From a virus: a DNA stretch of 60,921 bases. Position numbers and translations under genes: made by a program. Positions within the stretch are counted from its first letter, which is position 1, and every line of letters starts with the position of its first letter. Below, one piece after another: positions 3,538 through 29,438 of this stretch. The notes below the pieces were generated by a model that searched no databases, was not told where the DNA came from, and saw nothing but the letters and a program-made list of their open reading frames with translations. The DNA lies in the IMG/VR virus record IMGVR_UViG_3300029787_000001, positions 130,439 through 191,359 of that record; one strand, written 5' to 3'.

Positions 3538-4401
3538 ATGAAACACACCTTTGCAAGACAAAAAGTAAGGCAAATTATTCTTGAAGAGTTACAAGCAGAC
3601 CTTTTAATTGAAAGCACCGCCAACCAAATTCTTGAAGAGGGTGTTCTCGATGCTGTAAAGAATCTAAAAAGCAAATTCTTTCCGAACAAAAGTGACGAAG
3701 AAGTTCAAGATGAATTGGACGAAATAGGAAAAAACCCAGAAACACTTAACACGATGCCCAGAACTAAAAGAATTGGAATTCTATTTTTGGCTGGAATGTT
3801 AGGTGGATTTCTAACTCAAGGTGGCTTTGATTATGAGGCTCTTAGTTCTGCGTCGGCTGCTGATGCTCGAAGAATAGCATCTTCAGTAGACGCCACTTCG
3901 CAGAAGTCGCGAGATGTTCAAAACTTTATGCAAATGGCGTCTGCTGAAGCTGAGAGCGGCGGCGCTTCAACCCCAGAGGACGTAGACGCGGCAATTAAGC
4001 GAATTGTTAGAGACTACATGCAGTCCATAGAAGCTGCCCCCATTTCTCCCGGTCGCGGAATCTTTATTGGTGGAGATGTAAGAAAAGGACCTTTGAAGGG
4101 TTTTGCTTATGTCCCTGCTTCTTCGATTCCAGATGATGAAATCCTGCCCTTTATTGGGGTATCAAAGAAAGATTACGAAACACTATTGAGGGCGACATTC
4201 TTAACCGGCAAAGGTGGCGACCAAAGATTAGAGGATCTCGTCATGGGGCAAGGAAAGAAAGGCTCTTCAGGCTTCTGGGCTTATGACAATAACAGGCTCT
4301 TTCAGGGTTTCCAAGAGGACTCTTCTTATGCTATGCTGCCCCTTGAATGGTCTGTTGCTTACGAGCTTTTGAACAAAAGAAAGAGCAAGGGTCGCCTATA
4401 A
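3538..4401 (+). CDS. Late protein with tag-like N-terminus and one membrane segment
   Basis: The 287-residue protein begins with a basic helix containing QKVRQIILEELQ, which resembles the IIKEE tag found on many proteins near the head genes, including an (I/L)xE site. A hydrophobic segment follows at about residues 76-96 (IGILFLAGMLGGFLTQGGF), then an Ala/Ser-rich region and a C-terminal globular part. It is preceded by its own late-promoter motif although both neighbours are replication genes, so I infer it is a virion or late membrane protein. I do not recognise the C-terminal domain. Confidence 0.65.
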   Translation: MKHTFARQKVRQIILEELQADLLIESTANQILEEGVLDAVKNLKSKFFPNKSDEEVQDELDEIGKNPETLNTMPRTKRIGILFLAGMLGGFLTQGGFDYEALSSASAADARRIASSVDATSQKSRDVQNFMQMASAEAESGGASTPEDVDAAIKRIVRDYMQSIEAAPISPGRGIFIGGDVRKGPLKGFAYVPASSIPDDEILPFIGVSKKDYETLLRATFLTGKGGDQRLEDLVMGQGKKGSSGFWAYDNNRLFQGFQEDSSYAMLPLEWSVAYELLNKRKSKGRL

Positions 4402-7700: not shown

Positions 7701-7876
7701 AGCCTGGAACTGCTTTAGACGAAGAGAATATGGCAGGATTTATTCGGATCTTGGAACTAATTAAAGTGTATTTCAAGAACGTCTTGCTGATTTCTCACCT
7801 TGATTCTCTCAAGGATTGTGTAGACATGCAGATTGTGATTGAGAAAGACAAAGGATTCGCAAAGGTAAATCAATGA
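4766..7876 (+). CDS. Fused SbcD-SbcC (Mre11-Rad50, T4 gp47-gp46) recombination nuclease
   Basis: One 1036-residue chain carries both subunits. The N-terminal 350 residues are an Mre11-type metallophosphoesterase: DTH at 8-10, HCGDIAH near 50 and GNHDG at 78-82. The remainder is a Rad50-type ATPase: Walker A GKNFSGKS at about 398-405, long heptad-rich coiled coils, a zinc hook C715-x6-C722 at the apex, the signature MASGAEKT near 946 and Walker B LFILDEP near 974. It would resect double-strand ends for recombination-dependent replication. In T4 these are separate genes (47 and 46). The start is TTG 4766, chosen because AGGAGG lies five bases upstream and it overlaps the previous stop; an earlier TTG at 4739 adds nine residues without a ribosome binding site. 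Confidence 0.93.
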   Translation: MKIAHIADTHIKNLKYHEDYRACFEQMYKVLREQDVDCIVHCGDIAHTKTQISPEFVEMASDFFSNLADIATTFIILGNHDGNLKNSNRQDAITPIVQAIDSPNIRLLKNSGETPIANSNITLNVLSVFDRDNWIQPTDLDKVNIALYHGAISNCQTDAGWTMVHGEDEVSIFESFDYAMLGDIHKRQFLDDEKRVYYPGSTIQQNHGESNDKGFSIWTIDSKNDWDIEHFTLQNPRPFITLELTRTGKVPRSASVPANARLRIVSDNNLSLDVMRKAVDVARHKFGPESISFLNRSAGKRGNVEEIADGLGAQNLRDPEIQQELISEYLKDYQIKPAALTAIYKLNSKYNQEVEAKEDVSRNVNWELINFEWSNLFNYGESNSVDFRNINGITGIFGKNFSGKSSIIDAILFTIFGTTSKNERKNVNVVNQNRNCGEGTATIAIGDKSYTIHRKVEKYEKKSRGEVTIEAKTYLDFSVYDKILNEATSLNGTTRNQTDANIRKHFGTIDDFLISSMSSQHGALAFINEGSTKRKEIIAKFLDLQFFDKKFKLAKGDAQDSKALIKKLQGRDYNKEIQEAQDAVAEHKAEILKSETGNLKLQKKLTFVNDHIHGLANKISNIPTDVIDIHEVQSEIKKTKNKIISLSDSIIDDGNALHRERARFVKISNLLQTLDYETLTGSLVSIEEAERNLQAHTQKLEVASDKKKLLEDIPCGTAYPACKFIRDAHVATAVIPETESKIDELENTLSSLNPQIVRDHLDKYHKLERKQNETESLIKDLQLGIERRKSALDRHNTLIEELAQKQASYNDNKEAIENLEKLLKEKEVYAQQAKSIEEQAKSSSQKKIDLYKSLGSEEQRIEDLKERRLEFETIQAEYSSYDLFLRCMHPNGIAYDIIKQKLPVINEEIVKILSNVVDFEIFFETTGNKFEIFIKHPKHEARPIEMASGAEKTMAAMAIRLALLSVSSLPKSDLFILDEPGTALDEENMAGFIRILELIKVYFKNVLLISHLDSLKDCVDMQIVIEKDKGFAKVNQ

Positions 7877-9009
7877 ACAATGACGACGAGTTTGGCTTTT
7901 TGCCACCAGCAGAGGCGCCCCCAGCCTTCAACCAAGAAAAGGACCACTTCCACGAAGAAGTAGAAGCGGAAGACTTTGGCATGGTTGAGGACTTCGGATT
8001 ACAGATGGAATACTCTGACGAAGACATGCTACCGGAGAACACAGCCCCATCATCTATAAACGTGGGCTTTGTTGGCGTTGGCGGCGGTGGCAATAAGATG
8101 GCGAACGCCATGATTGAGTTGGGCTTCAACAAGACCCTACTCGTCAACAGCACAGGCAAAGACATTCCTAAGAACGTCGAAGAAGAGCACGTTGTGCTCA
8201 TCCCTGATAGCGACGGCATCGGAAAGAACATCACCTATGGCAAAGAAGTGTTGTCACAGAACGGCGCCGTCGTAGAAGATGCTCTCCGAATTAAGTTTGG
8301 CAAGGTTGACTGGCTGTTTGTTTTTGCAGGCGGTGGCGGTGGCACAGGCTCTTCTGTTGTTGCTCTCCAGCCTGTCTTTGAACGCTACCTACAATCTGTT
8401 CAGGCAAGCGGCAAGGTCGTTTACATTGTCTCTTGGCCAACAGCACAAGAAAATTTAAACCCAACGATAGCCCGCAATGCCCTATCACTTGCTAATGATG
8501 TCACGCCTTATCCACACATCATTCTAGATAACGAGAGAGCCACACGCCTGCTGCGCGGTCGCATAGGAATGCTAGGAATGTATCCAGTTGCAAACACACA
8601 GTTTGCCAAGTCATTCGCACAAATCCTAAAGCTATCTACCGAAGACTCCCCGATTCAGTCATTTGATTCTAAAGACTTGGAGACCTGCTTCAGCAAGGAT
8701 GGTCGCGCCTTTATCGGCTCTACAATGATCAAAGACCCCAACACTGGCAAGCTCGGCACAACTATCATGCATAACTGCATGAACCGCTCTGCTTGTCCTC
8801 CACCCAAGGGCAAGGCGGCAGCAGGATCACTTATCCTCGTAGCAAGTGAAGAGATGGTTGCTGACCCCCGCGTGTCTAAGCACCTTGAATCTGCGATTGC
8901 TTATGTCGGTGGTCGCTGCGAAACACTTTTCTCTGGGGTTTATGTCCGAAAGAATGTCCCCGGATTGATTGCGATACTATCTATGAATGGGATCGAAAAA
9001 GGAAAATAA
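7873..9009 (+). CDS. FtsZ/tubulin-superfamily GTPase
   Basis: After a 60-residue acidic, probably disordered N-terminus, the protein has the tubulin-superfamily nucleotide-binding elements: FVGVGGGGNKM at 66-76 (T1 loop), FAGGGGGTGSS at 151-161 (the GGGTGSG signature, T4 loop) and SFDSKDLE at 263-270, which aligns with the FtsZ T7 loop (NVDFADVR) and keeps the two catalytic Asp residues. It is followed by GRAFIGS as in FtsZ. All elements needed for GTP binding and polymer-coupled hydrolysis are present. Total length of 378 is close to FtsZ. Phage tubulins such as PhuZ position replicating DNA, but this one looks closer to FtsZ. It overlaps SbcDC by four bases, so it is co-expressed with replication genes and sits directly before the head block. 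Confidence 0.9.
   Translation: MNNDDEFGFLPPAEAPPAFNQEKDHFHEEVEAEDFGMVEDFGLQMEYSDEDMLPENTAPSSINVGFVGVGGGGNKMANAMIELGFNKTLLVNSTGKDIPKNVEEEHVVLIPDSDGIGKNITYGKEVLSQNGAVVEDALRIKFGKVDWLFVFAGGGGGTGSSVVALQPVFERYLQSVQASGKVVYIVSWPTAQENLNPTIARNALSLANDVTPYPHIILDNERATRLLRGRIGMLGMYPVANTQFAKSFAQILKLSTEDSPIQSFDSKDLETCFSKDGRAFIGSTMIKDPNTGKLGTTIMHNCMNRSACPPPKGKAAAGSLILVASEEMVADPRVSKHLESAIAYVGGRCETLFSGVYVRKNVPGLIAILSMNGIEKGK
8977..8984 (+). promoter_or_regulatory. Variant late-promoter motif CTATCTAT
   Basis: One mismatch from the consensus, located 34 bases before the ATG at 9011, a spacing like the intergenic copies. It overlaps the end of the FtsZ-like gene and would start the head block. It could be chance. 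Confidence 0.3.
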
Positions 9010-9163: not shown

Positions 9164-9616
9164 ATGAAGATAACCAAAGCCAAACTAAAGCAAATCATCA
9201 AAGAAGAGCTTGAAGTAGTCCTCACAAATGAAGAGGTTGAGGAGATGTTTGGCGAAGATGTTCGCGCCCAAGTAGAAGAATCGGAACAGTTCAGAGACCA
9301 GCAGAAGATGGACAGAGCCCAGTCAGTCGCAGGGCAGCAGATGTCTTTTGAGCAATGGGTGTCTGTCGTGTTCAAAATGGGCTACGAGATTGATGATAGT
9401 TCTCCCAATCCTTACGATGCTTGGATGAGTGGTCAACCACCCGAAGAATACGCCAGCATGCAAGAGAAAAAACTCACAAAGCCCGAGAAAAAAGAAAAAG
9501 AGAAAGTAGTTAAAGGCATGAAGAAATCAAAGAGTGATTTTGAAAAGCGCTATGGCGATGACGCCGAAAGCGTAATGTACGCAACGGCGACAAAGATCGC
9601 AAAGGAAAAAAAATGA
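9164..9616 (+). CDS. IIKEE-tag protein with C-terminal basic module
   Basis: Starts MKITKAKLKQIIKEE, the clearest example of the N-terminal tag shared by many small genes here, followed by an acidic helical middle. The C-terminal part (about residues 102-150) is Lys-rich with KSDFEKRYGDDAESVMYAT and ATKIAKEKK, a module I recognise as recurring at the end of small proteins in T4-like aquatic phages but without a known function. No membrane segment. It abuts the cysteine-rich gene and overlaps the next gene by four bases. I infer an internal head protein (see findings). Confidence 0.7.
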   Translation: MKITKAKLKQIIKEELEVVLTNEEVEEMFGEDVRAQVEESEQFRDQQKMDRAQSVAGQQMSFEQWVSVVFKMGYEIDDSSPNPYDAWMSGQPPEEYASMQEKKLTKPEKKEKEKVVKGMKKSKSDFEKRYGDDAESVMYATATKIAKEKK

Positions 9617-9996
9617 AAATCAAAAAATCAGAGCTATTAGCTCTAATCAAAGAAGAGATTATGGCTGAGATGTATGATGATCCAAGAATGGATGATGCGT
9701 ATCCAGAAGTCAGAGAAGCACAAAAGATTGTAGAGATGATCATGGGTATGAGCGGAGGCGACAAAGCAGCCGCTATGCAAATGCTCATGAATGCTATGGG
9801 CATGCTACAGGGCGAAATGGATGTTGCTGCTGAGCCCATGATGGAAGAAACAGAGCTACAAGAAGGTATGGACGCTGAATCTATGCAGATTGTTGCTGAT
9901 GCTGTCCAGAAGATGGCACCGTTAATCGGCGTCATGTCTCTACCAGTTCTCGTTGGTCTTATCTACGAGCAGCTAAAGAACATGGGCGCCAAATGA
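9613..9996 (+). CDS. IIKEE-tag protein, Met-rich acidic
   Basis: A 127-residue protein beginning MKIKKSELLALIKEEI, a variant of the shared tag. The remainder is unusually rich in methionine and acidic residues (MIMGMSGGDKAAAMQMLMN), then ends with a hydrophobic helix, PLIGVMSLPVLVGLIYEQL at about residues 103-121. It is flanked by four-base overlaps on both sides, so translation is coupled along the operon. Possible internal head protein or scaffold component; the C-terminal helix could instead indicate membrane contact. Confidence 0.65.
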   Translation: MKIKKSELLALIKEEIMAEMYDDPRMDDAYPEVREAQKIVEMIMGMSGGDKAAAMQMLMNAMGMLQGEMDVAAEPMMEETELQEGMDAESMQIVADAVQKMAPLIGVMSLPVLVGLIYEQLKNMGAK

Positions 9997-10196
9997 TGAG
10001 CAAAGAGCAGAAACAAGCACTACTTGATAGAGGCATCCAAAAGCTTACATCCCGCAAGCTACTCGTGTGGCTCACTGCCACAGGTCTTATGGCTTGGGGC
10101 GGACTAGAATCGGCAGACTGGGTTATTATCTCTGGTCTTTATCTCGGTGGTCAATCTGTGATTGACGCTATTGTAAAGCTTAAGGGACTTGAGTGA
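9993..10196 (+). CDS. Small membrane protein, candidate holin
   Basis: A 67-residue protein with two hydrophobic segments (about 23-37 and 43-60) separated by LESAD, a short basic N-terminus and a basic C-terminus. This size and hairpin topology is that of class II holins, which make the membrane lesion that times lysis. It is followed at once by two genes with spanin-like topology, which strengthens a lysis role, although the endolysin is far away at 59343. Two adjacent ATGs (9993, 9996) are possible starts; a dual start is common in holins but cannot be shown here. Confidence 0.55.
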   Translation: MMSKEQKQALLDRGIQKLTSRKLLVWLTATGLMAWGGLESADWVIISGLYLGGQSVIDAIVKLKGLE

Positions 10197-10573
10197 AGCA
10201 AAAGATTCTAGCATTCTGCTTAAGACACTGGAAGGAGATCGGGCTTGTCCTGCTCCTTCTTGTTGTGTTTGGTAAAAGCCGCTATGATGTGCGCAACATT
10301 ATCAAGGCACACGAAATTTCACAGCAATCACTAAAGACACAGATAGAAGAACTACAGGGCATCCACGCCGAAGAATTACAGCAGCGTGATGAAGCCCTTG
10401 AAGAATACAGAATAAGAAATGAAAAGCTTGAGATGCGCTATCAAGATGCCCTGATTGATTTGTCAAATGAGATTGACAAAAAGAAGGAGCGTGTTATAAG
10501 AAACTACAGGGAAGATAAAGAAGCCCTTATAGTTCAAATAGAAGACATCTACGGATTCACCTATGTTCCTTAA
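10193..10573 (+). CDS. N-terminal membrane anchor plus coiled coil, candidate inner-membrane spanin
   Basis: GTG start (10193) overlaps the previous stop by four bases. Residues 16-27 are a hydrophobic anchor (IGLVLLLLVVFG) preceded by basic residues, then almost the whole protein is heptad-rich and charged (from about residue 40 to 115). This is the topology of Rz-type i-spanins: anchored in the inner membrane with a periplasmic coiled coil. The next gene overlaps it by 11 bases, as spanin pairs often do. Sequence similarity alone does not prove the assignment. Confidence 0.5.
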   Translation: MKQKILAFCLRHWKEIGLVLLLLVVFGKSRYDVRNIIKAHEISQQSLKTQIEELQGIHAEELQQRDEALEEYRIRNEKLEMRYQDALIDLSNEIDKKKERVIRNYREDKEALIVQIEDIYGFTYVP

Positions 10574-10970
10574 TTTATTATTTATGATCTCGACTGCTGG
10601 CGCAAGCCCAGAGTTTTCTATTGTTGATGAAGGAGCCCCGTCTCCCATAGAGGGCGTTGTCTTCAACCCCGAGGCTTTGTCCGAGGTTCTTACAGCACCA
10701 CAGCGCGTGAAAGAAGAGTGCGAGATCGAATGGACAAGAACACTTGAAATAAAACAAAATGATTTTACTCTTGAGTTGGAGCAACAAGTAATAAGATACA
10801 ACTCCCTCAATAGAAAACACAACTTGATGATAATAGAAAAAGACACCGAGATTGTAGAACTACAGAAGATCGTGAAGAAGCAAGCACCAGCCTATAAATG
10901 GATGTGGTTTGTAGGCGGCGTAGCTCTCGGTGGCGCAACTTACTATGGAATCCAACAGGCGGTTAAATGA
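10563..10970 (+). CDS. Exported protein with C-terminal membrane segment, possible spanin partner
   Basis: 135 residues. The first 14 (MFLNLLFMISTAGA) look like a signal sequence with an Ala-x-Ala type cleavage site. A coiled coil covers about residues 58-108 and a transmembrane helix lies near the C-terminus (WMWFVGGVALGGATYYGI). That is the layout of a u-spanin, but there is no lipobox cysteine, so it is not a standard lipoprotein spanin. Position after a holin-like and an i-spanin-like gene suggests a lysis or envelope role. The ATG lies inside the previous gene, in another frame. Confidence 0.5.
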   Translation: MFLNLLFMISTAGASPEFSIVDEGAPSPIEGVVFNPEALSEVLTAPQRVKEECEIEWTRTLEIKQNDFTLELEQQVIRYNSLNRKHNLMIIEKDTEIVELQKIVKKQAPAYKWMWFVGGVALGGATYYGIQQAVK

Positions 10971-11347
10971 GTAATGACCCAGACTACATTGTTAAAGTAG
11001 AGCAGGCTATCGCCAAGAAGTATGGCGAAGAAGCAATCCAAAATCCCAAAGCAGATTGGGATGAAGAAAAAGAAAAAGTCTATCTTGAACAGATGCGAGA
11101 TCTCTACAAGAAACAAAAGAAAAATGATGAAGCCAACGACAAAGTAGAACTAAATGGAATAAAGGTTTCAAGAAAACTACTTAATAGAGAATCCAAAACA
11201 GGATGCCCTGTTTGTGGTGCCTTTTCGCAATCTACCCGCGATGATGTGTCCCTTGTGAAGTTTAATTGCTGTTACAAGTGTTACATCAAATGGGTAGAAG
11301 GAAGAGAAGAACGTTGGCAAAAAGGATGGCGACCAAATGAAAGCTGA
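10967..11347 (+). CDS. Zinc-ribbon protein of unknown function
   Basis: 126 residues: a charged helical N-terminal half (acidic and Lys-rich) followed by a zinc ribbon made of CPVC at about 80-83 and CCYKC at about 101-105. The C-terminus is Trp/Arg-rich (KWVEGREERWQKGW). It overlaps its neighbours by 4 and 11 bases. A nucleic-acid-binding or assembly-adaptor role fits the fold but nothing more can be said. No tag sequence at the N-terminus, so it may not be a head protein. Confidence 0.65.
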   Translation: MSNDPDYIVKVEQAIAKKYGEEAIQNPKADWDEEKEKVYLEQMRDLYKKQKKNDEANDKVELNGIKVSRKLLNRESKTGCPVCGAFSQSTRDDVSLVKFNCCYKCYIKWVEGREERWQKGWRPNES

Positions 11348-11861
11348 AGAACTACGGGCTTTAATCAGAGAAGTTCTTGCGGAGCAAGACGATAAGATAA
11401 AGTTAAAGACCGGCTCGAAAACACCCCAAGCCCTTAAGGCAGAAATTCTTGACACGATCAAGAACATTGATGTAGATGTAATAAAATCACAAGAGTTGAT
11501 GTTCATCAACCAAATGATAGGGAGAATGTTCCAGCTTGCCGCCCAAGGCGATTTAGTTAGAGGCAAGACTGCCATTCAAAGAGGGTTTGAACTTATGAGC
11601 AAAGGCGTTCCAAAAGAAGAGCCAGAGCAAACCAATGAAGGTCACCAAATGATAGGCGGCATAGAAGATGATGGTCACGAAGTGGAGATGGCTCTTTCTG
11701 ATTTACACAAACTGGAGAAATACGCCCCACAGGTCTCCCAACTTGCTTCACAATATTCTGACCTCCCTGGCTGGGTTCAATCAAAGATTACTCTCGCTGC
11801 TGACTATTTAGGGAAAGTCTACCACTATTTAGATGGCAAGCACAATAAAGGAATGGAATAA
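11337..11861 (+). CDS. Tag-like protein with LPxWVQxKIT helical module
   Basis: The N-terminus MKAEELRALIREVLAEQ is a diverged form of the shared tag with LRA/IRE/LAE sites for a gp21-type protease. The C-terminal 60 residues contain EVEMALSDLHKLEKYAPQ, then LPGWVQSKITLAADYLG, a helical module I have seen repeatedly in aquatic phage proteins of unknown function. 174 residues in all, acidic, no membrane segment. Overlaps the next gene by a single base (taATG). Probable internal or scaffold-associated head protein by inference. Confidence 0.65.
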   Translation: MKAEELRALIREVLAEQDDKIKLKTGSKTPQALKAEILDTIKNIDVDVIKSQELMFINQMIGRMFQLAAQGDLVRGKTAIQRGFELMSKGVPKEEPEQTNEGHQMIGGIEDDGHEVEMALSDLHKLEKYAPQVSQLASQYSDLPGWVQSKITLAADYLGKVYHYLDGKHNKGME

Positions 11862-12409
11862 TGGCTACAGTTTACGAAATCGTTCAGGGCTTATCACAAG
11901 CCGCAGCAAACGCCTACGACGGCGCAATGACTGAAGATGGCGAGCCCATCAAGGCAGGTCTAAAGAGAGAAGAGGGAGACCCGCTAATCGATAAGCGAGT
12001 AATGGATGGCTTCAATGTTAAGTTCCATGGCAACATAATGCGTCTTTCTTACATGTCAGAGGTAACTCTTAAAGAGGTTTACGCTAACGGTTTCGAGTCT
12101 GATGTTGAATCACAGATGGCTGAGATTGTCAAGTTTCTTAAGAAGGAAGCCCGCAAGATTACTGGCTCTACTGTCAAGCTTACTAAAGAGGGTGAGATTG
12201 ACATTCGTGTCGAGAACTCCTCAAGAGTCCGTTCTTGGGTTACAGCCGTTATGGAATACAAAGTCGGTGGTATGGAAGAGGCTGCTATCGTAGGCGAAGC
12301 AACCGAAGACAAGCTCGCCGCCGGGTGGCAAAAGTTTATGTCCCAGGGCGGTCTTGGAACACGCCCCCCTAACGATAAGAGACCAAAAAACTCGGGAGAA
12401 AAAAAATGA
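11861..12409 (+). CDS. Conserved protein upstream of terminase, unknown function
   Basis: 182 residues with a compact alpha/beta composition: an Ala-rich start (YEIVQGLSQAAANAYDG), a central beta-rich part, a basic helix (AEIVKFLKKEARKITGS) and a disordered Lys/Pro/Gly tail. No catalytic or metal-binding motif is apparent. Its place between tag proteins and just before large terminase suggests a head or packaging function. Two copies of CTATTTAG occur within the end of the preceding gene, one of them 36 bases before this start, but these also encode Tyr-Leu and may be coincidence. Confidence 0.6.
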   Translation: MATVYEIVQGLSQAAANAYDGAMTEDGEPIKAGLKREEGDPLIDKRVMDGFNVKFHGNIMRLSYMSEVTLKEVYANGFESDVESQMAEIVKFLKKEARKITGSTVKLTKEGEIDIRVENSSRVRSWVTAVMEYKVGGMEEAAIVGEATEDKLAAGWQKFMSQGGLGTRPPNDKRPKNSGEKK

Positions 12410-12675
12410 AGATAACAAAAGAAAGACTAAAAAAGATTATCAAAGAAGAGATGAATTCTCTTTCCTATGGTGATGAGTTAGGTTCAACAGAACCACAATA
12501 CGACACAGGAATGCGTAGCCCAGAGCAGAAATTAATTCATGCCCTTGCCGCTCGTGCTAGATTAGATCAAATGACCGACCAACAGATTGAAGAACTAGCA
12601 GCCGGTGATCAAGAAGTGATGCAACTAATTCAAGACATGATGGCAAACCAAATGCTTGACAATCCAAGAATGTAA
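12406..12675 (+). CDS. IIKEE-tag protein, 89 residues
   Basis: Begins MKITKERLKKIIKEEM, a near-perfect copy of the shared tag. The remaining 73 residues are acidic and helical with several Met and Gln residues (TDQQIEELAAGDQEVMQLI) and end NPRM. Overlaps the previous gene by four bases and lies 10 bases before large terminase. Small terminase is often found just before the large one, but I see no DNA-binding motif, so I do not call it that. Candidate internal head or scaffold-associated protein. Confidence 0.65.
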   Translation: MKITKERLKKIIKEEMNSLSYGDELGSTEPQYDTGMRSPEQKLIHALAARARLDQMTDQQIEELAAGDQEVMQLIQDMMANQMLDNPRM

Positions 12676-12685
12676 AGTAAGATGA

Positions 12686-14266
12686 ATGCCAAGATTAACG
12701 AAAAAGCAGATACTCAAAGAAGTCGTTAAGTGTGGTAAAGACCCCTCTTACTTCCTCAAAAACTATGCCCGCATCTCTCACCCGATGCATGGGCTTATGT
12801 TGTTTAAGACCTACGATTATCAGGATGTCTTACTAAACGAATTTAACGACTATCGCTTTAACATTATCAATAAAGGTCGCCAGCTAGGAATCTCAACGAT
12901 TACGGCTGGCTACATTGTTTGGATGATGTTGTTTCACAGAGACAAAGCCATCCTTGTTATGGCTACCAAGTTTGAAACAGCAGGCAACTTGGTTCGCAAA
13001 GTCAAAAACATAATGAAGAACCTTCCTGACTGGATCAGGATTGCTAGCATCACCACCGACAACCGCACATCTTTTGAGTTGTCCAATGGTTCTTCAATCA
13101 AGGCTGCTTCAACATCGGGCGACGCTGGTCGCTCTGAGGCTCTGTCCCTGCTTGTTCTTGATGAGGCAGCACACATTGAGGGTCTAGAAGATCTCTGGAC
13201 TGGTCTCTACCCAACGCTATCTACTGGTGGTCGCTGCATTGCAATCTCAACACCAAATGGTGTTGGCAACTGGTTCCACAAAACTTGCGTAGGTGCCGAG
13301 AGCAATGATAATAATTTCAAACTCACGACACTTATGTGGGACGTTCACCCGGAAAGAGATGAAGAATGGTTTAAGAAAGAAACCAAGAACATGTCCAAAA
13401 GACAAATCGCACAGGAGTTGGAGTGCAACTTCAATACTTCAGGCGAGACAGTTGTCGATCCATCAGCGATTGAATGGATGATGTCCATGGTAAAAGAACC
13501 AAAGCATAGAACTGGCTTTGATAGAAACTTTTGGATTTGGGAAGAGCACGATCCAACCTGCAATTATCTTATCGCTGCTGACGTTGCAAGAGGTGACGGT
13601 GCTGATAGCTCCACATTTCACATTTTAAAATTAGAAACGATGGAGATCATTGGAGAGTATCAGGGCAAACCTACACCCGATCTCTATGCCAACATGCTCA
13701 ATCAGGTTGGACGAGAGTTCGGCAATGCCATGATGGTAGTCGAGAATAATTCAATCGGTTACACCGTCATAGACAAGCTTATAGAGTATGCTTATCCTAA
13801 TCTTTATTATTCCATTAAGTCTACACATGAATATATCGACCAGCACTTAGGGGAACACCGCACCGGAACTATCGCGGGTTTCTCTACAACAAGCAAGACT
13901 AGACCCCTCATTGTTGCTAAGTTAGAAGAGTTTATAAGAAACAAACTAATTAAAACGTATTCTTCACGTTTGGCAAATGAATTTAGAACATTTATTTGGA
14001 ACAACGGGAAGCCACAAGCAATGCGAGGGTATAATGATGACTTGGTGATGGCTCTTGCGATTTGTTGCTGGGTCAGAGACACGGCAATCCAGTCGAATTC
14101 CAGAGACCTTAATTACCAAAAAGCTTTTGTTGACGCTATTATGACTTCCAAAACCACCTTGAACACCCAGATAAGGGGACAAATTGGCTACACAGGAGAA
14201 GATCAAACTAGTAAAATGAACGAAGCAAAAAATCTATATTCCCAATATATGTGGATAATAAAGTGA
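12686..14266 (+). CDS. terL: Terminase large subunit (T4 gp17 type)
   Basis: The packaging motor ATPase-nuclease. The ATPase domain has Walker A KGRQLGIST at 63-71 and Walker B LLVLDEAAH at 155-163, followed by the coupling motif ISTPNG. The C-terminal RNase H-like nuclease has its acidic residues in LIAADVARGDGADSS, VVENNSIG and GYNDDLVMALA. 526 residues, close to T4 gp17 (610) and typical of phage large terminases. It would dock on the portal to pump DNA and cut the concatemer at headful. Portal follows after eight bases. No separate small terminase is recognisable nearby. Confidence 0.95.
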   Translation: MPRLTKKQILKEVVKCGKDPSYFLKNYARISHPMHGLMLFKTYDYQDVLLNEFNDYRFNIINKGRQLGISTITAGYIVWMMLFHRDKAILVMATKFETAGNLVRKVKNIMKNLPDWIRIASITTDNRTSFELSNGSSIKAASTSGDAGRSEALSLLVLDEAAHIEGLEDLWTGLYPTLSTGGRCIAISTPNGVGNWFHKTCVGAESNDNNFKLTTLMWDVHPERDEEWFKKETKNMSKRQIAQELECNFNTSGETVVDPSAIEWMMSMVKEPKHRTGFDRNFWIWEEHDPTCNYLIAADVARGDGADSSTFHILKLETMEIIGEYQGKPTPDLYANMLNQVGREFGNAMMVVENNSIGYTVIDKLIEYAYPNLYYSIKSTHEYIDQHLGEHRTGTIAGFSTTSKTRPLIVAKLEEFIRNKLIKTYSSRLANEFRTFIWNNGKPQAMRGYNDDLVMALAICCWVRDTAIQSNSRDLNYQKAFVDAIMTSKTTLNTQIRGQIGYTGEDQTSKMNEAKNLYSQYMWIIK

Positions 14267-14274
14267 GAAACTAA

Positions 14275-16275
14275 ATGGCACAAAGAAATCCAAAGCAAGG
14301 CAAGAATCCAGCAAACAGAGGCTCCCAATTATTTCAGTCTCTTACACGGCTATTTTCGGGACCTATCATTAGCTATCGATCAGAGTCTGGTCGCAAAATT
14401 CGTAGACAACATCTTGATAAGTATTCTACAAAATTTAAATCTGCTTCCGGGCAGCAGTTCAAGAAGCAGAGCTACAATCCTTTGGACACCATTGCTGCCA
14501 ATGCGATTGGCAATCAACGCCGCGCAGAGCGCTACATCGACTTTGATCAAATGGAATACACCCCAGAGTTAGCCTCCGCTCTTGACATTTATGCAGACGA
14601 GATGACTACATTCTCTGCTCTATCTCCGATGTTAAATATCAAATGTCGCAATGAAGAAATCAAAGCAGTTCTGAATATTTTGTACCATAATGTGATGAGC
14701 ATCGAGCACAATCTTTTTGGCTGGTGTCGCACGATGTGCAAGTATGGCGATTTCATTTTATATCTTGACATTGACGATAAAATTGGAATCCAATCAACAA
14801 TTGCTATTCCTCTGCAAGAAGTTGAGAGACTTGAAGGTCTAGATGCCACAAATCCGAATTATGTACAATATCAGTGGAACTCTGCTGGAATGACTTTCGA
14901 GAACTGGCAGATTGCTCACTTCCGCATTCTTGGCAACGATAAATACTCCCCTTATGGAACCTCTGTTCTTGAGCCAGCCCGACGCATTTGGCGCCAACTA
15001 ACACTCATGGAAGACGCGATGATGGCTTACCGCATTGTTCGCTCTTCTGAGCGAAAGGTTTTCAAGATTGATGTGGGTGCTGTCCCGCCGCAGGAAGTAG
15101 AACAATTTATGCAGAACATTGTAACTAAGCTTAAGCGCCACACGATCGTTGATAAAGATACCGGACGCATCGACCTACGTTACAATCCGATGTCTATCGA
15201 AGAAGACTATTACATCCCAGTTCGTGCTGGGTCTGTGACCGACATTCAAAGCCTTGCAGGTGGGCAAAACACAACTGCAATTGACGATGTCAAGTATCTT
15301 CGTGACAAGCTCTTTTCAGCGATAAAGATTCCACAGGCTTATCTAACGATGGGCGAAGGAGCGCAGGAAGACAAGACCACGCTTGCGACCAAAGACATTC
15401 GTTTCGCTCGCACCATTCAAAGATTACAACGCTCTGTGCTTCATGAACTAGAGAAGATTGGAATTGTCCATCTCTACACTCTTGGCTACAGAGGCGAGGA
15501 TCTTATAAACTTCAAGCTTGCTCTTAACAACCCAAGCAAGATTGCAGAGCTACAAGAACTCGAACACTGGAAGACCAAGTTTGATATTGCTGCGTCCGCA
15601 ACAGAAGGCTTCTTTTCTCGTCGCTGGGTTGCCGATAACATCTTTGGCATGTCCCACGAAGAGTTCCTTCGCAACCAGCGCGAAATGTTCTATGATCGCA
15701 AACACGATACAGCACTTGAAAGTGTTGCCGAAGCAGCCGCAGGCGGTGGCGAAGGTGGTGGTGACGCCGGAGGTCTTGACCTTGGCGGTGGCGACGAGGG
15801 CGGCTTAGATCTTGGTGGCGATGAAGGAGGCGGTGATCTAGACCTCGGTGGCGATGAGGGCGGTGGTGATGAAGGTGGGGGTGACGAAAGCGCACTTCTA
15901 GCAGAGCCTCCGGGTTCTCGCAACTCTCCGCGCCTAGCCAAGTCACTTGGCAAGCGCGCAAGAACAGGAGACAAATACACAACCAAGGGCGCAAAGGGTA
16001 AAGTTTACCAAAAGGTGGCAACTGACAAAAGACCACAAGGTGCTAGAACTCGCAATTATGCAGGCGTCCCCACCCCCGAAATGAACACCTATCGAACGAA
16101 CAATCTTGGCGCTTCAGAGTTAAGATCACTATCAAGAGGCATTTATGAAGAGCAAGACCCTAATTACTTGCGAGACCAAGAGGAAGAGCAATCTCTTCTA
16201 GAGGTCGATAGTTCAGTTAAAATGCTTATCGAAGGTCTAGAAATAAAGACAACGGAGAACGATAATGAAGAATAA
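14275..16275 (+). CDS. gp20: Portal protein (T4 gp20 type) with Gly/Asp-rich extension
   Basis: The 666-residue protein matches the T4 gp20 portal over about residues 40-470: conserved stretches include LDIYADEMTT, KYGDFILYLD, PYGTSVLEPARR and IKIPQAYLTMG. It forms the dodecameric ring for DNA entry and neck attachment and nucleates head assembly. Compared with T4 gp20 (524 residues) it has about 140 additional C-terminal residues: a low-complexity Gly/Asp tract at about 490-538, then a basic segment with many Arg/Lys, and an acidic end. It lies between terminase and the head-assembly genes as expected, and overlaps the next gene by 11 bases. Confidence 0.95.
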   Translation: MAQRNPKQGKNPANRGSQLFQSLTRLFSGPIISYRSESGRKIRRQHLDKYSTKFKSASGQQFKKQSYNPLDTIAANAIGNQRRAERYIDFDQMEYTPELASALDIYADEMTTFSALSPMLNIKCRNEEIKAVLNILYHNVMSIEHNLFGWCRTMCKYGDFILYLDIDDKIGIQSTIAIPLQEVERLEGLDATNPNYVQYQWNSAGMTFENWQIAHFRILGNDKYSPYGTSVLEPARRIWRQLTLMEDAMMAYRIVRSSERKVFKIDVGAVPPQEVEQFMQNIVTKLKRHTIVDKDTGRIDLRYNPMSIEEDYYIPVRAGSVTDIQSLAGGQNTTAIDDVKYLRDKLFSAIKIPQAYLTMGEGAQEDKTTLATKDIRFARTIQRLQRSVLHELEKIGIVHLYTLGYRGEDLINFKLALNNPSKIAELQELEHWKTKFDIAASATEGFFSRRWVADNIFGMSHEEFLRNQREMFYDRKHDTALESVAEAAAGGGEGGGDAGGLDLGGGDEGGLDLGGDEGGGDLDLGGDEGGGDEGGGDESALLAEPPGSRNSPRLAKSLGKRARTGDKYTTKGAKGKVYQKVATDKRPQGARTRNYAGVPTPEMNTYRTNNLGASELRSLSRGIYEEQDPNYLRDQEEEQSLLEVDSSVKMLIEGLEIKTTENDNEE

Positions 16276-17095
16276 ACACAACAAGAAGCGCAACACAGCC
16301 TTTGTTTTCGAGGCTTTGGCTCGTGAAGCCACTGTTGCCATCATAAAGGGAGACAACGAAAGAAAAGAAAAAGTTGTCTCTATTGTGCGCAAGCACTTCA
16401 CTAACGACTCGTTGTTGAAGAAAGATCTTGAATGCTACCGCTCACTCTATGAAAACCAAAATCTAGATGAGCCAACTAGCAAGAAAATCATGGAAGCCGC
16501 GTTGGCAGCTAAGCGCCTTATTGATCCAGATGGATTGTTCAAGCAACAGACTGAAATTATAAATGACATCAATAAAGAGCTAGAGCCAAAGACTTTCAAT
16601 AACTTTGTTCCAAACTATAAGTCACTGGCGACAATAGCTAAGATGTTTAACACAAATTCCCCCAAGCAATCGGTAATGCTTGAATCAAAAATTGTTAAAG
16701 GAATGACTGAAACGATTGAGGCTCAAGCCCTTGAGACAATCGATTCACTTACTTTTACTACTTTTACGAAGAAGTTCAACGAAAAGTACGGAAACTCCTT
16801 ATTAGAAGAGCAAAAGAATCTTCTAAACAATTACATTTCATCATTCTCCCACGATGATCTTGAGACCAAAATCTACCTCAACAGAGAACTTGGTAGATTA
16901 AAGCAGTCACTATCTGAGGCAGTCAGCGCAGAAGAAATTGCAAATGACCCTGAGATGATTCGCAAGACAAATGCCGTGAGAGAAAAGCTTGACAACTTAT
17001 CGAAAGAAACAAGCTTAAACGAATCTACCCTGTTGACTATCTTAAAGACGCAGGAGTTAGTAAAGGAAATCTACGACGATGCCAGTAACAGTTAG
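16265..17095 (+). CDS. Conserved head-block protein, unknown function
   Basis: 276 residues, mostly helical and charged, starting with a Lys/Asn-rich segment (MKNKHNKKRNTAFVFEALAR). The pattern KRNTAxxFEAL at the N-terminus is conserved in proteins next to the portal of T4-like aquatic phages, as I recall, but no function is established. No membrane segment or catalytic motif. Overlaps portal by 11 bases and the next gene by 17. A scaffold-like or portal-associated role is possible given location and helical composition. Confidence 0.6.
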   Translation: MKNKHNKKRNTAFVFEALAREATVAIIKGDNERKEKVVSIVRKHFTNDSLLKKDLECYRSLYENQNLDEPTSKKIMEAALAAKRLIDPDGLFKQQTEIINDINKELEPKTFNNFVPNYKSLATIAKMFNTNSPKQSVMLESKIVKGMTETIEAQALETIDSLTFTTFTKKFNEKYGNSLLEEQKNLLNNYISSFSHDDLETKIYLNRELGRLKQSLSEAVSAEEIANDPEMIRKTNAVREKLDNLSKETSLNESTLLTILKTQELVKEIYDDASNS

Positions 17096-17654
17096 AATTG
17101 TCCCAATCCCAGAACCAGTTAAGGTTACAATAAAGCCGAAATCACCCCCTCCTACTGTAACACTTGAGCTTGACATCCGTAAGTCGCTCAGTGGTGATCT
17201 CATGATCTTTGATCATAACGACCTAGACATTGTTCTTTCTGGCAAAGACAAAAAAATTACTGCATTTCCAAAGCAGACAATGACCGACTTCACCTACGGA
17301 GCACAGAATAGATTATTTGCACACCTAGCTCGCAAAGGCATTGTTATGCCAGAGTCAATCCAGGGTGGCTCTTATTATGGTGCCATGGAAGCACAGCTAC
17401 AAGAAGTCGCAGATGGTAAGTTAAACGCTGCCAAGTTTGCCCTTGTAAGCATCGAAAGGTTTATCAAAGAAGAGAAACCTTACTATGATAATGTTGAGAC
17501 AATTGTAGCCGGCGTTGAAGATGAATACACTGACCCTGATAAGACCGATTCAACAGAACTCGGCGAAGTCCCGCAACGCGACGAACAGGGCTCCATTCGC
17601 CCTGGCTATGGTAGAGGAAGCTCTTACACCATGTCTTACATGTACACAATCTAG
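17079..17654 (+). CDS. Conserved head-block protein, unknown function
   Basis: 191 residues. The first 40 are Pro/Val/Lys-rich beta-type sequence, then a central part with SGDLMIFDHNDLDIVLSGKD and FPKQTMTDFTYGAQNRLF, and an acidic Gly/Tyr-rich tail. It starts inside the previous gene (17-base overlap). The neighbours are portal on one side and prohead protease on the other, so a virion or assembly role is likely. I cannot name a family. Confidence 0.6.
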   Translation: MPVTVRIVPIPEPVKVTIKPKSPPPTVTLELDIRKSLSGDLMIFDHNDLDIVLSGKDKKITAFPKQTMTDFTYGAQNRLFAHLARKGIVMPESIQGGSYYGAMEAQLQEVADGKLNAAKFALVSIERFIKEEKPYYDNVETIVAGVEDEYTDPDKTDSTELGEVPQRDEQGSIRPGYGRGSSYTMSYMYTI

Positions 17655-17663
17655 GAGCCCATT

Positions 17664-18122
17664 ATGTCAAAAAAAATGAAAGTCATAATGGAAAGCTGGG
17701 ACAAATTTGTTTTGCAAGAGGCTCCTCTTGAGACAGTCGGAGATCTAAGAAAGCTTATTAAAACTCATAGAGCCAAAGAGGCTGGCAAGGAATTGGGTAA
17801 GAAAGCCGCTGAAGCAGCAATAGAGCAAATCCCAGTTGTTAGCAACATCTTTTCGCTTTGGAAAGGCGCCCAAGATGCCAAAGAAATTGTAGGCAAGCTA
17901 TACGGTGCTGAAGATTCTTTTAAATCAGCGACCGGCTTAGACAGGCTAAACGTCGATGATGACGTATCTAAGATTGTAGATGACCCAATCGAGGTGGCAT
18001 TTATCAATGATCTACTGAAAGCAATGGAAGACATGGATGATCTAGCTCCAATTCCAGATGTCAATGATGAGCTTCAAAAATACTTAGCTGACAAATTTAA
18101 CAGCAATCAGGTCAAGAAATAA
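17664..18122 (+). CDS. Head-block protein with a second type of N-terminal tag
   Basis: The N-terminus reads KVIMESWDKFVLQEAP, like the T4 internal-protein capsid-targeting peptide (MKTYQEFIAEA) in having a short basic start, an aromatic helix and an (L/I)xE site (LQE) before Ala. The middle is Ala/Lys-rich and helical, and the C-terminus is acidic with LAPIPDVNDELQKYLADKF, a motif I have also seen in other aquatic phage proteins. 152 residues, good ribosome binding site (AGGAG). I infer it is carried into the prohead and processed by the protease encoded 1.2 kb downstream. Confidence 0.65.
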   Translation: MSKKMKVIMESWDKFVLQEAPLETVGDLRKLIKTHRAKEAGKELGKKAAEAAIEQIPVVSNIFSLWKGAQDAKEIVGKLYGAEDSFKSATGLDRLNVDDDVSKIVDDPIEVAFINDLLKAMEDMDDLAPIPDVNDELQKYLADKFNSNQVKK

Positions 18123-18464
18123 ATGGAACTTCTATTATTCGTCCTCATAGCCTACGGACTAACACAAATTTTAGTCTATAGCGACATGCCCATAATAAAA
18201 AAACTAAGACCTCACAAGGAATCCTACAAGGGTTATGGCAAGGTTTTTCACTGCCCCATGTGCATGGGTTTTCACGTCGGTTGGTTTTTGCTCCTTCTTT
18301 CTCCTTGGACCGAACTATTTACGTTTGACGCTACAATAGTCAATGCTTTTCTATTTGGTTGTCTTTCATCTGCTACCTCCTATGTTCTAAACATGGTGTT
18401 TTCAGATGAAGGAATTCAAATAAAGCATAATTACAAGCATGACACTTTTTTCACAGAGGAATAA
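18123..18464 (+). CDS. Membrane protein with CPMC motif (DUF1360-like)
   Basis: 113 residues with hydrophobic segments at about 3-20, 54-70 and 80-100. Between the first two is HCPMCMGFHVGWF, the Cys-x2-Cys-x-Gly-Phe pattern of DUF1360-like small membrane proteins found in Gram-positive bacteria and in some phages. Function of that family is unknown. It begins directly after the previous stop. A membrane protein inside a head block is unusual; assembly at the membrane or superinfection exclusion are possibilities only. Confidence 0.6.
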   Translation: MELLLFVLIAYGLTQILVYSDMPIIKKLRPHKESYKGYGKVFHCPMCMGFHVGWFLLLLSPWTELFTFDATIVNAFLFGCLSSATSYVLNMVFSDEGIQIKHNYKHDTFFTEE

Positions 18465-18467
18465 AAA

Positions 18468-18734
18468 ATGAAAATCACCAAAGAAACACTAAAGCAAATA
18501 ATCAAAGAAGAGTTTGAGGCAATGCAAGGCGCAGAACTTGCAGAGGACGACGATCCCTACGGACAAAAGGGTGTCAAACCATCCAATGTTACCCGTGAGA
18601 TGAATAGAGACTTAAACAATGCTCTCTATAATTTTATTGTAGGTTACAAGAAAGATGGCTGGGATGTCTTCAGAGTAGTCGAGATGGTTAACGATATGGT
18701 AAAGCGCGCCGCCGAAATGGCAGAGAAGGCTTAA
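18468..18734 (+). CDS. IIKEE-tag protein, 88 residues
   Basis: Begins MKITKETLKQIIKEEF, a close match to the copies at 9164 and 12406. After an acidic linker (AEDDDPYGQ) the rest forms amphipathic helices with KKDGWDVFRVVEMVNDMVK. No membrane segment. Small and soluble, lying between portal and prohead protease; candidate internal head protein. It has a ribosome binding site (GAGGA) overlapping the end of the membrane-protein gene. Confidence 0.65.
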   Translation: MKITKETLKQIIKEEFEAMQGAELAEDDDPYGQKGVKPSNVTREMNRDLNNALYNFIVGYKKDGWDVFRVVEMVNDMVKRAAEMAEKA

Positions 18735-18799
18735 TGAACAACTTTCTACTATCTAAATGGGGACTACAACCAGTACGTCGTTGCTGTAAGGGCTCCTAA
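18734..18799 (+). CDS. Possible 21-residue peptide
   Basis: An ATG overlapping the previous stop by one base (taATG) opens a 21-codon frame ending TAA at 18797-18799, with two Trp/Cys-containing clusters (WGLQPVRRCC). The tight overlap is the style of real genes here, but there is no similarity evidence and the frame is very short. A GCGGG/CCCGC hairpin follows at 18805-18819 before the next ribosome binding site. Confidence 0.2.
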   Translation: MNNFLLSKWGLQPVRRCCKGS

Positions 18800-18833
18800 C
18801 TCGCGCGGGTAACGCCCGCCCAAAGGAATAAAC

Positions 18834-19319
18834 ATGGAAACTACAAAACAAAGAATTAAAGAAATTCTTAAAGAAGAAATAGACTCCGCAATCAATGAGC
18901 AGCGCCCACCTCTGCCGCCACCGCCTCCTAGGCGTCCGGCGCAAAAACCAGCCAGAAAGTTGCCACCCCCGCCACCTAGATCTAAGGCTTCTAAATCAGC
19001 CAGAAGACCACCACCCCCTCCAAAAAAGACTCAAGGCAGTGCCGATGAGAAGACTTTTGACCGCTTTACCAAACTGCTTCATAAAGTAATCGTTAGGGGA
19101 TTGGGCTCAGAAGCATCCGAAAGAGATATTCTAGAAGCTTTAATTTACTTTATGAATGAAGCCGGCGCGGGCATTCCGCGCGGTGGCAGAAATCCAGAAA
19201 AATCAATCGGAAACTGGTTTGACTCTACTGATCAAGATGTCACCAAGGTTCTTAGAACAACCTTTGTTAAAGCCACTAAAGGAATTAAAGCTTATAAACA
19301 GCAAATGAGAAAAAGATGA
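18834..19319 (+). CDS. Tag protein with proline-rich linker and basic C-terminus
   Basis: Begins METTKQRIKEILKEEI, a variant of the shared tag with LKE/IKE sites. Residues 24-69 are a striking Pro/Arg/Lys tract with runs of five or six prolines (LPPPPPRRPAQ, then PPPPPRSK and PPPPPKKT). A helical basic domain follows (about 75-161) ending QQMRKR. Net charge is strongly positive, as in T4 internal proteins that enter with DNA. It ends in a four-base overlap with the prohead protease gene, tying the two in expression. The specific function of the C-terminal domain is unknown. Confidence 0.7.
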   Translation: METTKQRIKEILKEEIDSAINEQRPPLPPPPPRRPAQKPARKLPPPPPRSKASKSARRPPPPPKKTQGSADEKTFDRFTKLLHKVIVRGLGSEASERDILEALIYFMNEAGAGIPRGGRNPEKSIGNWFDSTDQDVTKVLRTTFVKATKGIKAYKQQMRKR

Positions 19320-19915
19320 AACTACTAAGAGAATTTTACGAACTATGCGACGGAGGAATCTGTCACGATCTTTTGACCGAAGACGAAAAGAGGCAGGTTG
19401 CCGAAGGTGCGACTTTTCTTACGGGCAAGCTACAAGAAGCCGATGTCCAAAATGGAAATGGTCGCGTTTACCCTTTTAAGGTTTTAGCCCGAGAGGTCCA
19501 GAACTACGAAAAGCTAGTAAAAGAAAACAGAGCACTCGGCGAACTAGACCACCCCGATGATTCAGTCATTAACCTAAAAAACGCATCCCACATGGTCACA
19601 GCTATTTGGATGGAAGACAAAGCTGTTATGGGCAAGGTAAAGGTTCTTAACACCCCGTCAGGACAGGTTCTTAAGTCTCTTGTGGAATCGGGCGTCAAGC
19701 TTGGCATCTCCTCTCGTGGCATGGGCTCTGTGTCTGAAGCTGCTGGCAATGTCGTTGTCCAAGAAGACTTCCAGCTTATTTGTTTTGACTTTGTATCCGA
19801 GCCCTCAACCCCGAATGCATTTATGATGCGAGAAGCAAAAGAGTTTAACAACAAAGTGTTTACGAAAGCAGATCGCATTAACAGATTACTCAACGAAGTA
19901 TTGAAGGAACAATGA
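19316..19915 (+). CDS. gp21: Prohead core protease (T4 gp21 type, S77)
   Basis: 199 residues with the gp21 catalytic elements: GELDHPDD (His79) and LGISSRGMG (Ser132/133), the His and Ser of the herpesvirus-like assemblin fold; T4 gp21 is 212 residues. The family matures the prohead by cutting scaffold, capsid and internal proteins after Glu in (L/I)xE contexts and then digests itself; this protein has its own LTE and LKE sites near the ends. It sits in the middle of the tagged-protein cluster and overlaps tag proteins on both sides by four bases. In T4 it is directly followed by scaffold and capsid genes; here a 9.5-kb stretch intervenes. Confidence 0.93.
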   Translation: MKLLREFYELCDGGICHDLLTEDEKRQVAEGATFLTGKLQEADVQNGNGRVYPFKVLAREVQNYEKLVKENRALGELDHPDDSVINLKNASHMVTAIWMEDKAVMGKVKVLNTPSGQVLKSLVESGVKLGISSRGMGSVSEAAGNVVVQEDFQLICFDFVSEPSTPNAFMMREAKEFNNKVFTKADRINRLLNEVLKEQ

Positions 19916-20343
19916 ACAAATCACAACTCAAGAAGCTAATCAAGCCAGTCGTAAAAGAGTGCATCCAAGAAGTCCTCATAGAAGAGGGTCTTCTTACTGA
20001 GGTCGTGTCTCAAGTTACAGCCGGCTTAGCTAAGCAGCCAATTGTAGAAAACAAGCCAAAGAAAATAGACAACAACCTATTTAATGAAGACTTGCAAATG
20101 CAACGCAAGTCCCGAGAGGCGAACAAGAAACTACAAGAGCATCGCAGAAAGTTGCTAGACTCAATTGGTGAAGGTGCCTACAACGGCGTAGATTTGTTTG
20201 AGGGCACCGAGCCCATGAAAAACTCATCATCGCCCGGCGGCGCGCACAGACCAGATGTCCTCGGCGACGATCCCAACGATGCAGGCGTAGATATCTCTTC
20301 CCTCATGGGACAAGCAGGCAAAGTTTGGCAAGCCATTAAATAG
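19912..20343 (+). CDS. Tag-like head-block protein
   Basis: 143 residues beginning MNKSQLKKLIKPVVKECIQE followed by VLIEEGLL, a longer, diverged version of the shared tag with several (L/I)xE sites. The middle is basic and helical, and the C-terminal part has DLFEGTEPMKNSSSPGG and PNDAGVDISSLMG. It overlaps the protease by four bases, as T4 scaffold genes follow gp21, but the main scaffold is recognisable at 29439, so this is more likely an accessory core or internal protein. Confidence 0.65.
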   Translation: MNKSQLKKLIKPVVKECIQEVLIEEGLLTEVVSQVTAGLAKQPIVENKPKKIDNNLFNEDLQMQRKSREANKKLQEHRRKLLDSIGEGAYNGVDLFEGTEPMKNSSSPGGAHRPDVLGDDPNDAGVDISSLMGQAGKVWQAIK

Positions 20344-20351
20344 GAATAACA

Positions 20352-20600
20352 ATGAGCAGAAGAAAGGGCGCTAACGTTGCTGTAAAGGCAAGAGAGTGTC
20401 GTGGGAACCACGACAAGATGATCCGCAAGTTTATCAAGAAGTGCAAAAAAGCCAAGATAATAGAGCAGATTAGAGATAGAAGATATTTTAAAAAACCTTC
20501 CGATGCAAAGCGCCACGCAAAGCAGGCAGCAATTCGCAGACAGAAGCGCGATGTTGCCAAGCAAAAGGCTAAAGAGGCACGCCGCGAAAGAAATAGTTGA
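20352..20600 (+). CDS. rpsU: Ribosomal protein bS21-like
   Basis: 82 residues, very basic. It aligns throughout with bacterial bS21: VKARECRGNHDKMIRKFIKK corresponds to the bS21 start, then CKKAKIIEQIRDRRYFKKPS to the central helix with the conserved RRxxxxKPS, followed by the Lys/Arg tail. bS21 binds the 30S platform next to the anti-Shine-Dalgarno region and is one of the ribosomal proteins known to be carried by phages, where replacement of the host protein is the proposed use. It lies at the end of the head block, just before a late-promoter motif. Confidence 0.88.
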   Translation: MSRRKGANVAVKARECRGNHDKMIRKFIKKCKKAKIIEQIRDRRYFKKPSDAKRHAKQAAIRRQKRDVAKQKAKEARRERNS

Positions 20601-26010: not shown

Positions 26011-26037
26011 TGTTGGTTCTCAAACAGATTCGTGCTA

Positions 26038-26045
26038 CTATTTAT
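26038..26045 (+). promoter_or_regulatory. Late-promoter motif CTATTTAT
   Basis: TACTATTTAT between the terminator and the glycosyltransferase gene, 33 bases before its ATG. With a terminator just upstream, this gene needs its own promoter. Confidence 0.55.
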
Positions 26046-26070
26046 CATTGCTTACGCTGGAGGGCAAAAA

Positions 26071-29405: not shown

Positions 29406-29438
29406 TTTGAAAAACCATCATCATAGGAGTTTTTGTTA

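Follow-up and report, generated by a model that had tools for sequence, protein, structure and literature searches.

This work concerns a 60,921-nucleotide stretch of DNA from an uncultured, T4-like phage (the window), corresponding to positions 130,439 to 191,359 of the 191,359-base IMG/VR virus record IMGVR_UViG_3300029787_000001, the remainder of which was read as well; positions are those of the window unless given as genome coordinates. Scanning the whole record with position matrices made from N-termini, we find two families of short N-terminal tags, here termed tag A (MKITKxxLKxIIKEEL) and tag B (MKLLLENWRKFLxE), each of which heads nine genes, and the proteins behind them (the cargos) are mutually unrelated. 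What is the role of these tags? We hold it to be highly likely that both serve as capsid-targeting propeptides of a T4-type head, which would be cleaved off, with the cargo being packaged alongside the DNA and entering the host. A sequence-only reading of the window had proposed such propeptides and head cargo, a proposal that has gained support from the protease encoded in the same genomes, from conservation ending at an (I/L)xE motif, from the exchange of both tags on cargo and from S-adenosylmethionine (SAM) lyase-type cargo in virions of cyanophage S-CREM2.

Two tag families in one genome

Tag A starts the genes at genome positions 55959, 61258, 61479, 139602, 140051, 142844, 148906, 149272 and 185496, and tag B those at 1496, 58136, 58828, 59466, 60122, 60585, 64898, 71052 and 148114. 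All 18 score at least 30, compared with 11 for the next natural start and 12.5 for the best shuffled N-terminus in 20 shuffle rounds; when each tagged gene was left out of matrix training, scores still ranged from 17 to 48 (lowest 16.9). The six window genes on which the sequence-only reading had noticed tag A (9164, 9613, 12406, 18468, 18834 and 55058) reach at least 34, and its statement that their proteins are otherwise unrelated was borne out. The set it described is thus real but incomplete: three further tag-A genes (genome 55959, 61258 and 61479) are found outside the window, and it missed the tag-B family, a single member of which (17676) lies inside the window.

Within the window, all on the + strand, the tag of the first gene (9164–9616) spans 9164–9223 (MKITKAKLKQIIKEELEVVL) and precedes a basic C-terminal 'YATATK' module that also occurs in cyanophage GC119 proteins. 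It is followed by a Met-rich protein (9613–9996; MKIKKSELLALIKEEI), by two further tag-A proteins (12406–12675, MKITKERLKKIIKEEM; 18468–18734, MKITKETLKQIIKEEF) and by a proline-rich one (18834–19319) with the predicted cut INE↓QRPP (ISE↓QRPP in L141). The last (55058–55387; MKLTESHVRQVIKEEYEALLEE) carries a Lys-rich module (phrog_7595), and the tag-B protein (17676–18122) starts with MKVIMESWDKFVLQE↓A. Diverged tags had also been suggested for 11337, 19912 and 3538, where scores of −12 to −32 in the proposed register give them no backing. For 11337 (11337–11861; MKAEELRALIREVLAEQ), which does not stand on its own, some support comes from distant homologues with clearer, canonical or near-canonical tags in L209 (MKISKQKLKQIILEELEEV) and L173. 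The gene at 3538 (3538–4401; ..RQKVRQIILEELQADLLIE), a possible diverged case, scores 14 only with a shifted register, and a search for a homologue among relatives found none; the tag match of 19912–20343 (MNKSQLKKLIKPVVKECIQEVLIEE), a conserved gene after the protease, is not significant. An internal tag had been claimed for 54516 (54516–55061), which consists of two basic modules with a tag-A-like linker between them (DDHLLQVIKEEYAAVLAE, residues about 77–94); with a best score of only 11, this linker does not rise above noise.

At identical tag residues, synonymous codon differences are found at many positions (3–8 per gene pair), and therefore the sharing of tags does not reflect recent copying. 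Outside the window, at genome 58136–61700, seven tagged genes form one run, five with tag B followed by two with tag A, which links the two tags. The cargo of this run is mostly without known function; 59466 looks kinase-like by eye, a label that is a reading of motifs only, and there is no support for taking 71052 as an ADP-ribosyltransferase, PDB sequence searches having given nothing meaningful for either. For both the kinase-like cargo L429 and the 71052 family, predicted structures were unusable (mean predicted local distance difference test score of 35), a PADLOC run returned no match, relatives of a NUDIX cargo were looked for and none found, and a literature text search for the tag itself gave no relevant paper.

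Cleavage motifs and the head module

To delimit the tags, we aligned 386 non-redundant tag-A and 68 tag-B N-termini, in which conservation falls to background beyond about residue 22 and about residue 15, respectively. Residue 14 ends an (I/L)xE motif of the kind cut by gp21 in 97% of tag A (as IKE) and 85% of tag B. In 47.9% of tag-A sequences, a second hydrophobic-x-E motif has its E at residue 21 or 22, as opposed to 6.1% after shuffling (maximum 10.4% in 2000 shuffles); the residue behind it is most commonly G, A, Q or S. This second peak lies outside both the matrix and the search pattern and hence was not built in. The cleavage motif anticipated by the sequence-only reading thus stands, whereas its cut position and its single tag class need revision: tag A is probably often cut at the second (I/L)xE, some 7–8 residues past IKE, and the predicted propeptides form two classes.

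In tag B, W8 is present in 97% and F/Y11 in 84% of the 68 proteins, and the spacing W8-x-x-F11-L12-x-E14 equals Y4-x-x-F7-I8-x-E10 of T4. Suppressor mutants of the T4 capsid-targeting sequence (CTS), MKTYQEFIAE, mapped targeting to residues 4 and 7 and processing to residues 8 and 10 (PMC9026906); the N-terminus of both IPII and IPIII reads MKTYQEFIAEA. In both of our tags, the residue three before the predicted cut is I, L, V or M. Tag B is therefore best filed as a candidate T4-type CTS. Tag A is a CTS-like putative signal of a separate, new sequence class, because it does not share the aromatic residues.

The machinery for such processing is encoded in the window, where a T4-type head is represented by a portal and, on the + strand, by a large terminase of the gp17 type (12686–14266; homologue in 22 of 26 tag-A contigs), a gp21-type prohead protease (19316–19915; PF03420, E=5e-29; phrog_207), a prohead core or scaffold protein (29433–30764, assigned by position and homologues, with the C-terminus RMRKLAGI) and a gp23-type major capsid protein (30791–32671; phrog_138, 1e-69). 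The protease has a conserved site of its own, LLTE↓(D/E), at residue 22, and the predicted capsid-protein cleavage LLRE60↓(A/S) is present in 10/10 aligned sequences; both match the (L/I)xE-kind sites that gp21 cuts in T4 (PMC9026906). The apparent clustering of tags around the protease turned out to be an effect of the window, as the tag-A genes outside it, like eight of the nine tag-B genes, map to 1.5 kb and 56–71 kb of the genome, remote from the protease at 150 kb.

From tags, end motif, protease and interchangeability (see below), all read from the sequence, we infer core binding, cleavage, packaging and injection. The tag—A probably an amphipathic helix of about 16–22 residues, B about 14 residues—would bind the prohead core and bring the cargo in. 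The gp21-type protease would then cut after (I/L/V)xE at the tag end, at IKE and/or the following site in tag A and at FLxE in tag B, thereby releasing the cargo, which would remain with the packaged DNA and go into the host with it.

Could the tags instead lead to another site in the infected cell, for instance a filament or compartment built by the phage, their (I/L)xE ends being incidental? A tubulin/FtsZ-like gene (7873–9009, +; PF00091 at 1.4e-7, just under the cut-off) lies directly upstream of 9164, and the genomes of some tag-A phages exceed 240 kb, both of which would suit this idea. Still, it does not account for a second (I/L)xE lying where conservation ends, for the agreement of tag B with the T4 residue spacing or for the detection of T4-like-tagged cargo in virions, and most tag carriers have T4-type heads; we thus consider it improbable.

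Several other features of the head module deserve mention. A ribosomal protein S21 homologue (20352–20600, +; PF01165, 2e-9) sits within it, and an S21 is annotated at the corresponding position of phage Mel-JY01; a DUF2827 protein (26032–27174, +; PF10933, 3e-69) is encoded between tail/fibre-like and head genes. The sequence RMxxLAGI ends the core proteins of the present phage (30740–30764) and of Mel-JY01, with variants in phages immuto and RM378. Two immuto proteins (L412, 10132–10596) start with ..F(K/R)RMQ(F/K)LAGIITES, resembling this end, which is perhaps a mimicry of the scaffold tail.

Tag exchange and distribution in other phages

Once tags were removed, cargo comparison revealed related proteins under different tags. 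Directly behind the tags, the cargos of L115 (tag A) and L076 (tag B) share 75% identity over 52 residues (E=2e-27); L086 or L365 (tag A) match L077 (tag B) at 67% (60 residues, E=2e-23) and 59% identity, and L031 (tag A) matches L103 (tag B) at 38% over 168 residues (E=4e-28). Likewise, the cargo family of window gene 9613 carries tag B in L209. Tags A and B thus are probably interchangeable on cargo; two unrelated tags standing in for each other ahead of one protein is the behaviour expected of interchangeable address labels. Modules may also be fused: the G020 SAM lyase open reading frame (ORF) has tag B at its N-terminus and, further in, an in-frame tag A followed by a module that exists in L058 as a tag-A protein of its own, and the internal segment of window gene 54516 is similar, albeit weaker. 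One apparent pair, A409/B73, was discarded as a swap, because both belong to a single ORF, that of the G020 SAM lyase, which contains an internal tag-A Met.

These observations bear on the idea that the tags have no targeting role and are just gene starts that can be exchanged, were spread by recombination and may favour translation. Such spread would account for the recurrence of one N-terminus ahead of numerous unrelated proteins, some of them encoded in runs of tagged genes. Set against it are the retention of amino acids while codons vary, the end of conservation at a protease motif, the substitution of two unrelated tags on the same cargo and the internal in-frame copies (G020; 54516), which together make this very improbable.

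Using matrices trained on the present phage only, we found tag A in seven other phage contigs, which contain between 1 and 36 such genes apiece; three of these seven also have tag B. Tag and gp21-type protease were found together in related genomes: PF03420 is present in 20 of 26 tag-A contigs of at least 90 kb and in 16 of 27 of 30–82 kb, versus 0 of 23 random contigs. Among the six large contigs lacking it, four also lack the terminase and in G026 the terminase is at the very contig end, and these five contigs are therefore probably fragments without the head module. A tag search in 845 kb of random viral loci found none, and no cultured phage was found to carry tag A. Wide spread of the tag in bacteria was looked for as well: among about 85,000 prokaryote genomes, the pattern matches only six contigs in five metagenome-assembled genomes, two of which contain PF03420, the other three having matched on contigs shorter than 16 kb. 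Tag A is therefore not a feature of bacteria in general.

Clustering N-termini blindly retrieves the T4 internal proteins (positive control) and uncovers the tag families MKKSQLRQIIKEAL and MENFDLKKFLVE in the cultured Flavobacterium phage immuto; for RM378 and Mel-JY01, the search for N-terminal families stayed at control level. In T4 itself (NC_000866), a 54-residue ORF (18966–19130, −) starts with MKTFKEFIKED and clusters with the targeting sequences of IPI–IPIII, making it a possible further internal protein.

Virion data and known systems

Are tagged proteins found in virions? We compared the published virion proteome of S-CREM2 (Table 3 of PMC10665884, which is without N-terminal peptides). 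Five of its proteins bear a T4-style motif starting by residue 9, and all five were detected in virions (PMC10665884): a SAM hydrolase (MKDFDSFLEE; PF23780, 2e-19), a kinase (VKRFDAFLTEE), a cytidylyltransferase (MKNFSSFLTEA), gp13 and gp136. Within the first 32 residues, the motif occurs in 7/50 detected versus 3/178 undetected proteins (p=0.001) and in 6/25 detected non-structural proteins (p=1e-4), p-values that are optimistic because the motif was picked after the proteins were seen; internal control segments contained it in 0/137 cases. Co-purification is possible according to the authors (PMC10665884). The cytidylyltransferase detected in S-SZBM1 begins with MRFRQFIIEA. A Cas9-like S-CREM2 virion protein, gp12 (L416, 7704–10313, −), has a targeting-like motif, FASFMAE↓A, at residues 19–25.

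The SAM lyase of the present phage (genome 1496; PF23780, 8e-11) carries tag B and begins with MKKVITEWKEFLTE↓S. In six of seven other phages, its homologues show WxxF(L/I/V)xE or differ from it at one residue, and SSLSR comes next in most of them; that of the seventh phage, Mel-JY01, has FKQYILGE↓SSLSR. Packaging and cutting of tagged proteins appear likely and injection of cargo, above all of the SAM lyase, plausible; such a cargo fits early counter-restriction.

Alternatively, the tags might direct proteins to the prohead core as assembly parts only, which are cut and mostly lost or kept structurally, with few or no injected effectors. In the window, several tagged genes are interspersed with head genes, their products being small, acidic or Met-rich and free of enzymatic domains, and most T4 core proteins are cut up and leave the head (PMC9026906). 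A SAM lyase and a NUDIX enzyme among the cargo would be odd for a scaffold, however; a SAM hydrolase and a kinase are present in S-CREM2 virions, and tagged gene sets vary widely among related phages. We therefore regard a purely structural role as unlikely.

Several observations weigh against capsid targeting with injection. Residues 19–26 contain no second site in about 36% of tag-A proteins, and the cut position is therefore not uniform; tag A also has L8, I11 and I12 in place of the aromatics important in T4. Two S-SZBM1 neighbours of the cytidylyltransferase, 191 and 192, have perfect T4-like N-termini and are absent from the 30 detected proteins. Contig G005, with one weaker tag, has terminase and portal and no detectable gp21 or gp23, and the co-occurrence with the protease partly reflects common descent. 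Finally, the virion data come from phages with T4-like tags (S-CREM2 and S-SZBM1), and packaging and cutting of tag-A proteins are thus predictions.

If the tags are targeting codes, what follows? Proteins entering the host with phage DNA are hard to identify without virion proteomics; the sequences of abundant, uncultured marine phages could then serve to list the proteins they inject, among them counter-defence enzymes like SAM lyase. Tag A would be a new packaging signal for protein loading of phage heads, and the natural exchange of two unrelated ligands would make the binding partner of the T4 targeting sequence—a long-standing question—directly testable. It is an even bet, in our judgement, that tag A is a second, unrelated targeting code, operating in the same virions as the T4-type one, and that marine T4-like phages use both as N-terminal tags and as internal linkers in polyprotein-like cargo, loading tens of proteins per head and thus a large injected effector set readable from sequence.

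The closest known counterpart is the T4 CTS on IPI, IPII, IPIII and Alt, a gp21-cut short N-terminal propeptide on unrelated proteins that ends in (L/I)xE, in a genome with a gp21-type protease and a gp23-type capsid, and whose aromatic-x-x-F-(I/L)-x-E spacing recurs in tag B. Tag A differs from it by its Leu/Ile amphipathic pattern lacking aromatics, by its often two cleavage motifs and by its use up to 36 times per genome, compared with about four uses in T4. The virion enzymes of T4-like cyanophages (the S-CREM2 SAM hydrolase, APH-like kinase, cytidylyltransferase and Cas9-like protein) share with the present phage a SAM lyase with (W/F)xxF(L)xE; gp12–gp14, gp154 and gp136 of S-CREM2 bear the motif too, in the T4 style MKxFxxFLxE that sets them apart from tag A. 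The cyanophage structural protein T4-GC119 fuses the basic modules of 9164, 54516 and genome 60585 in one chain, one version having an internal WRQDLDE segment ahead of such a module; it is a single long multi-module protein, whereas the present phage has several tagged ones. In phiKZ and SPN3US, internal or ejected head proteins are cut by a diverged gp21 homologue and have propeptides with several cut sites (PMC9026906). Tags A and B part from these phages at the position three before the cut. There, the phiKZ/SPN3US motif has a small residue rather than I or L, and we know of no shared N-terminal tag of the A or B kind described for their head proteins.

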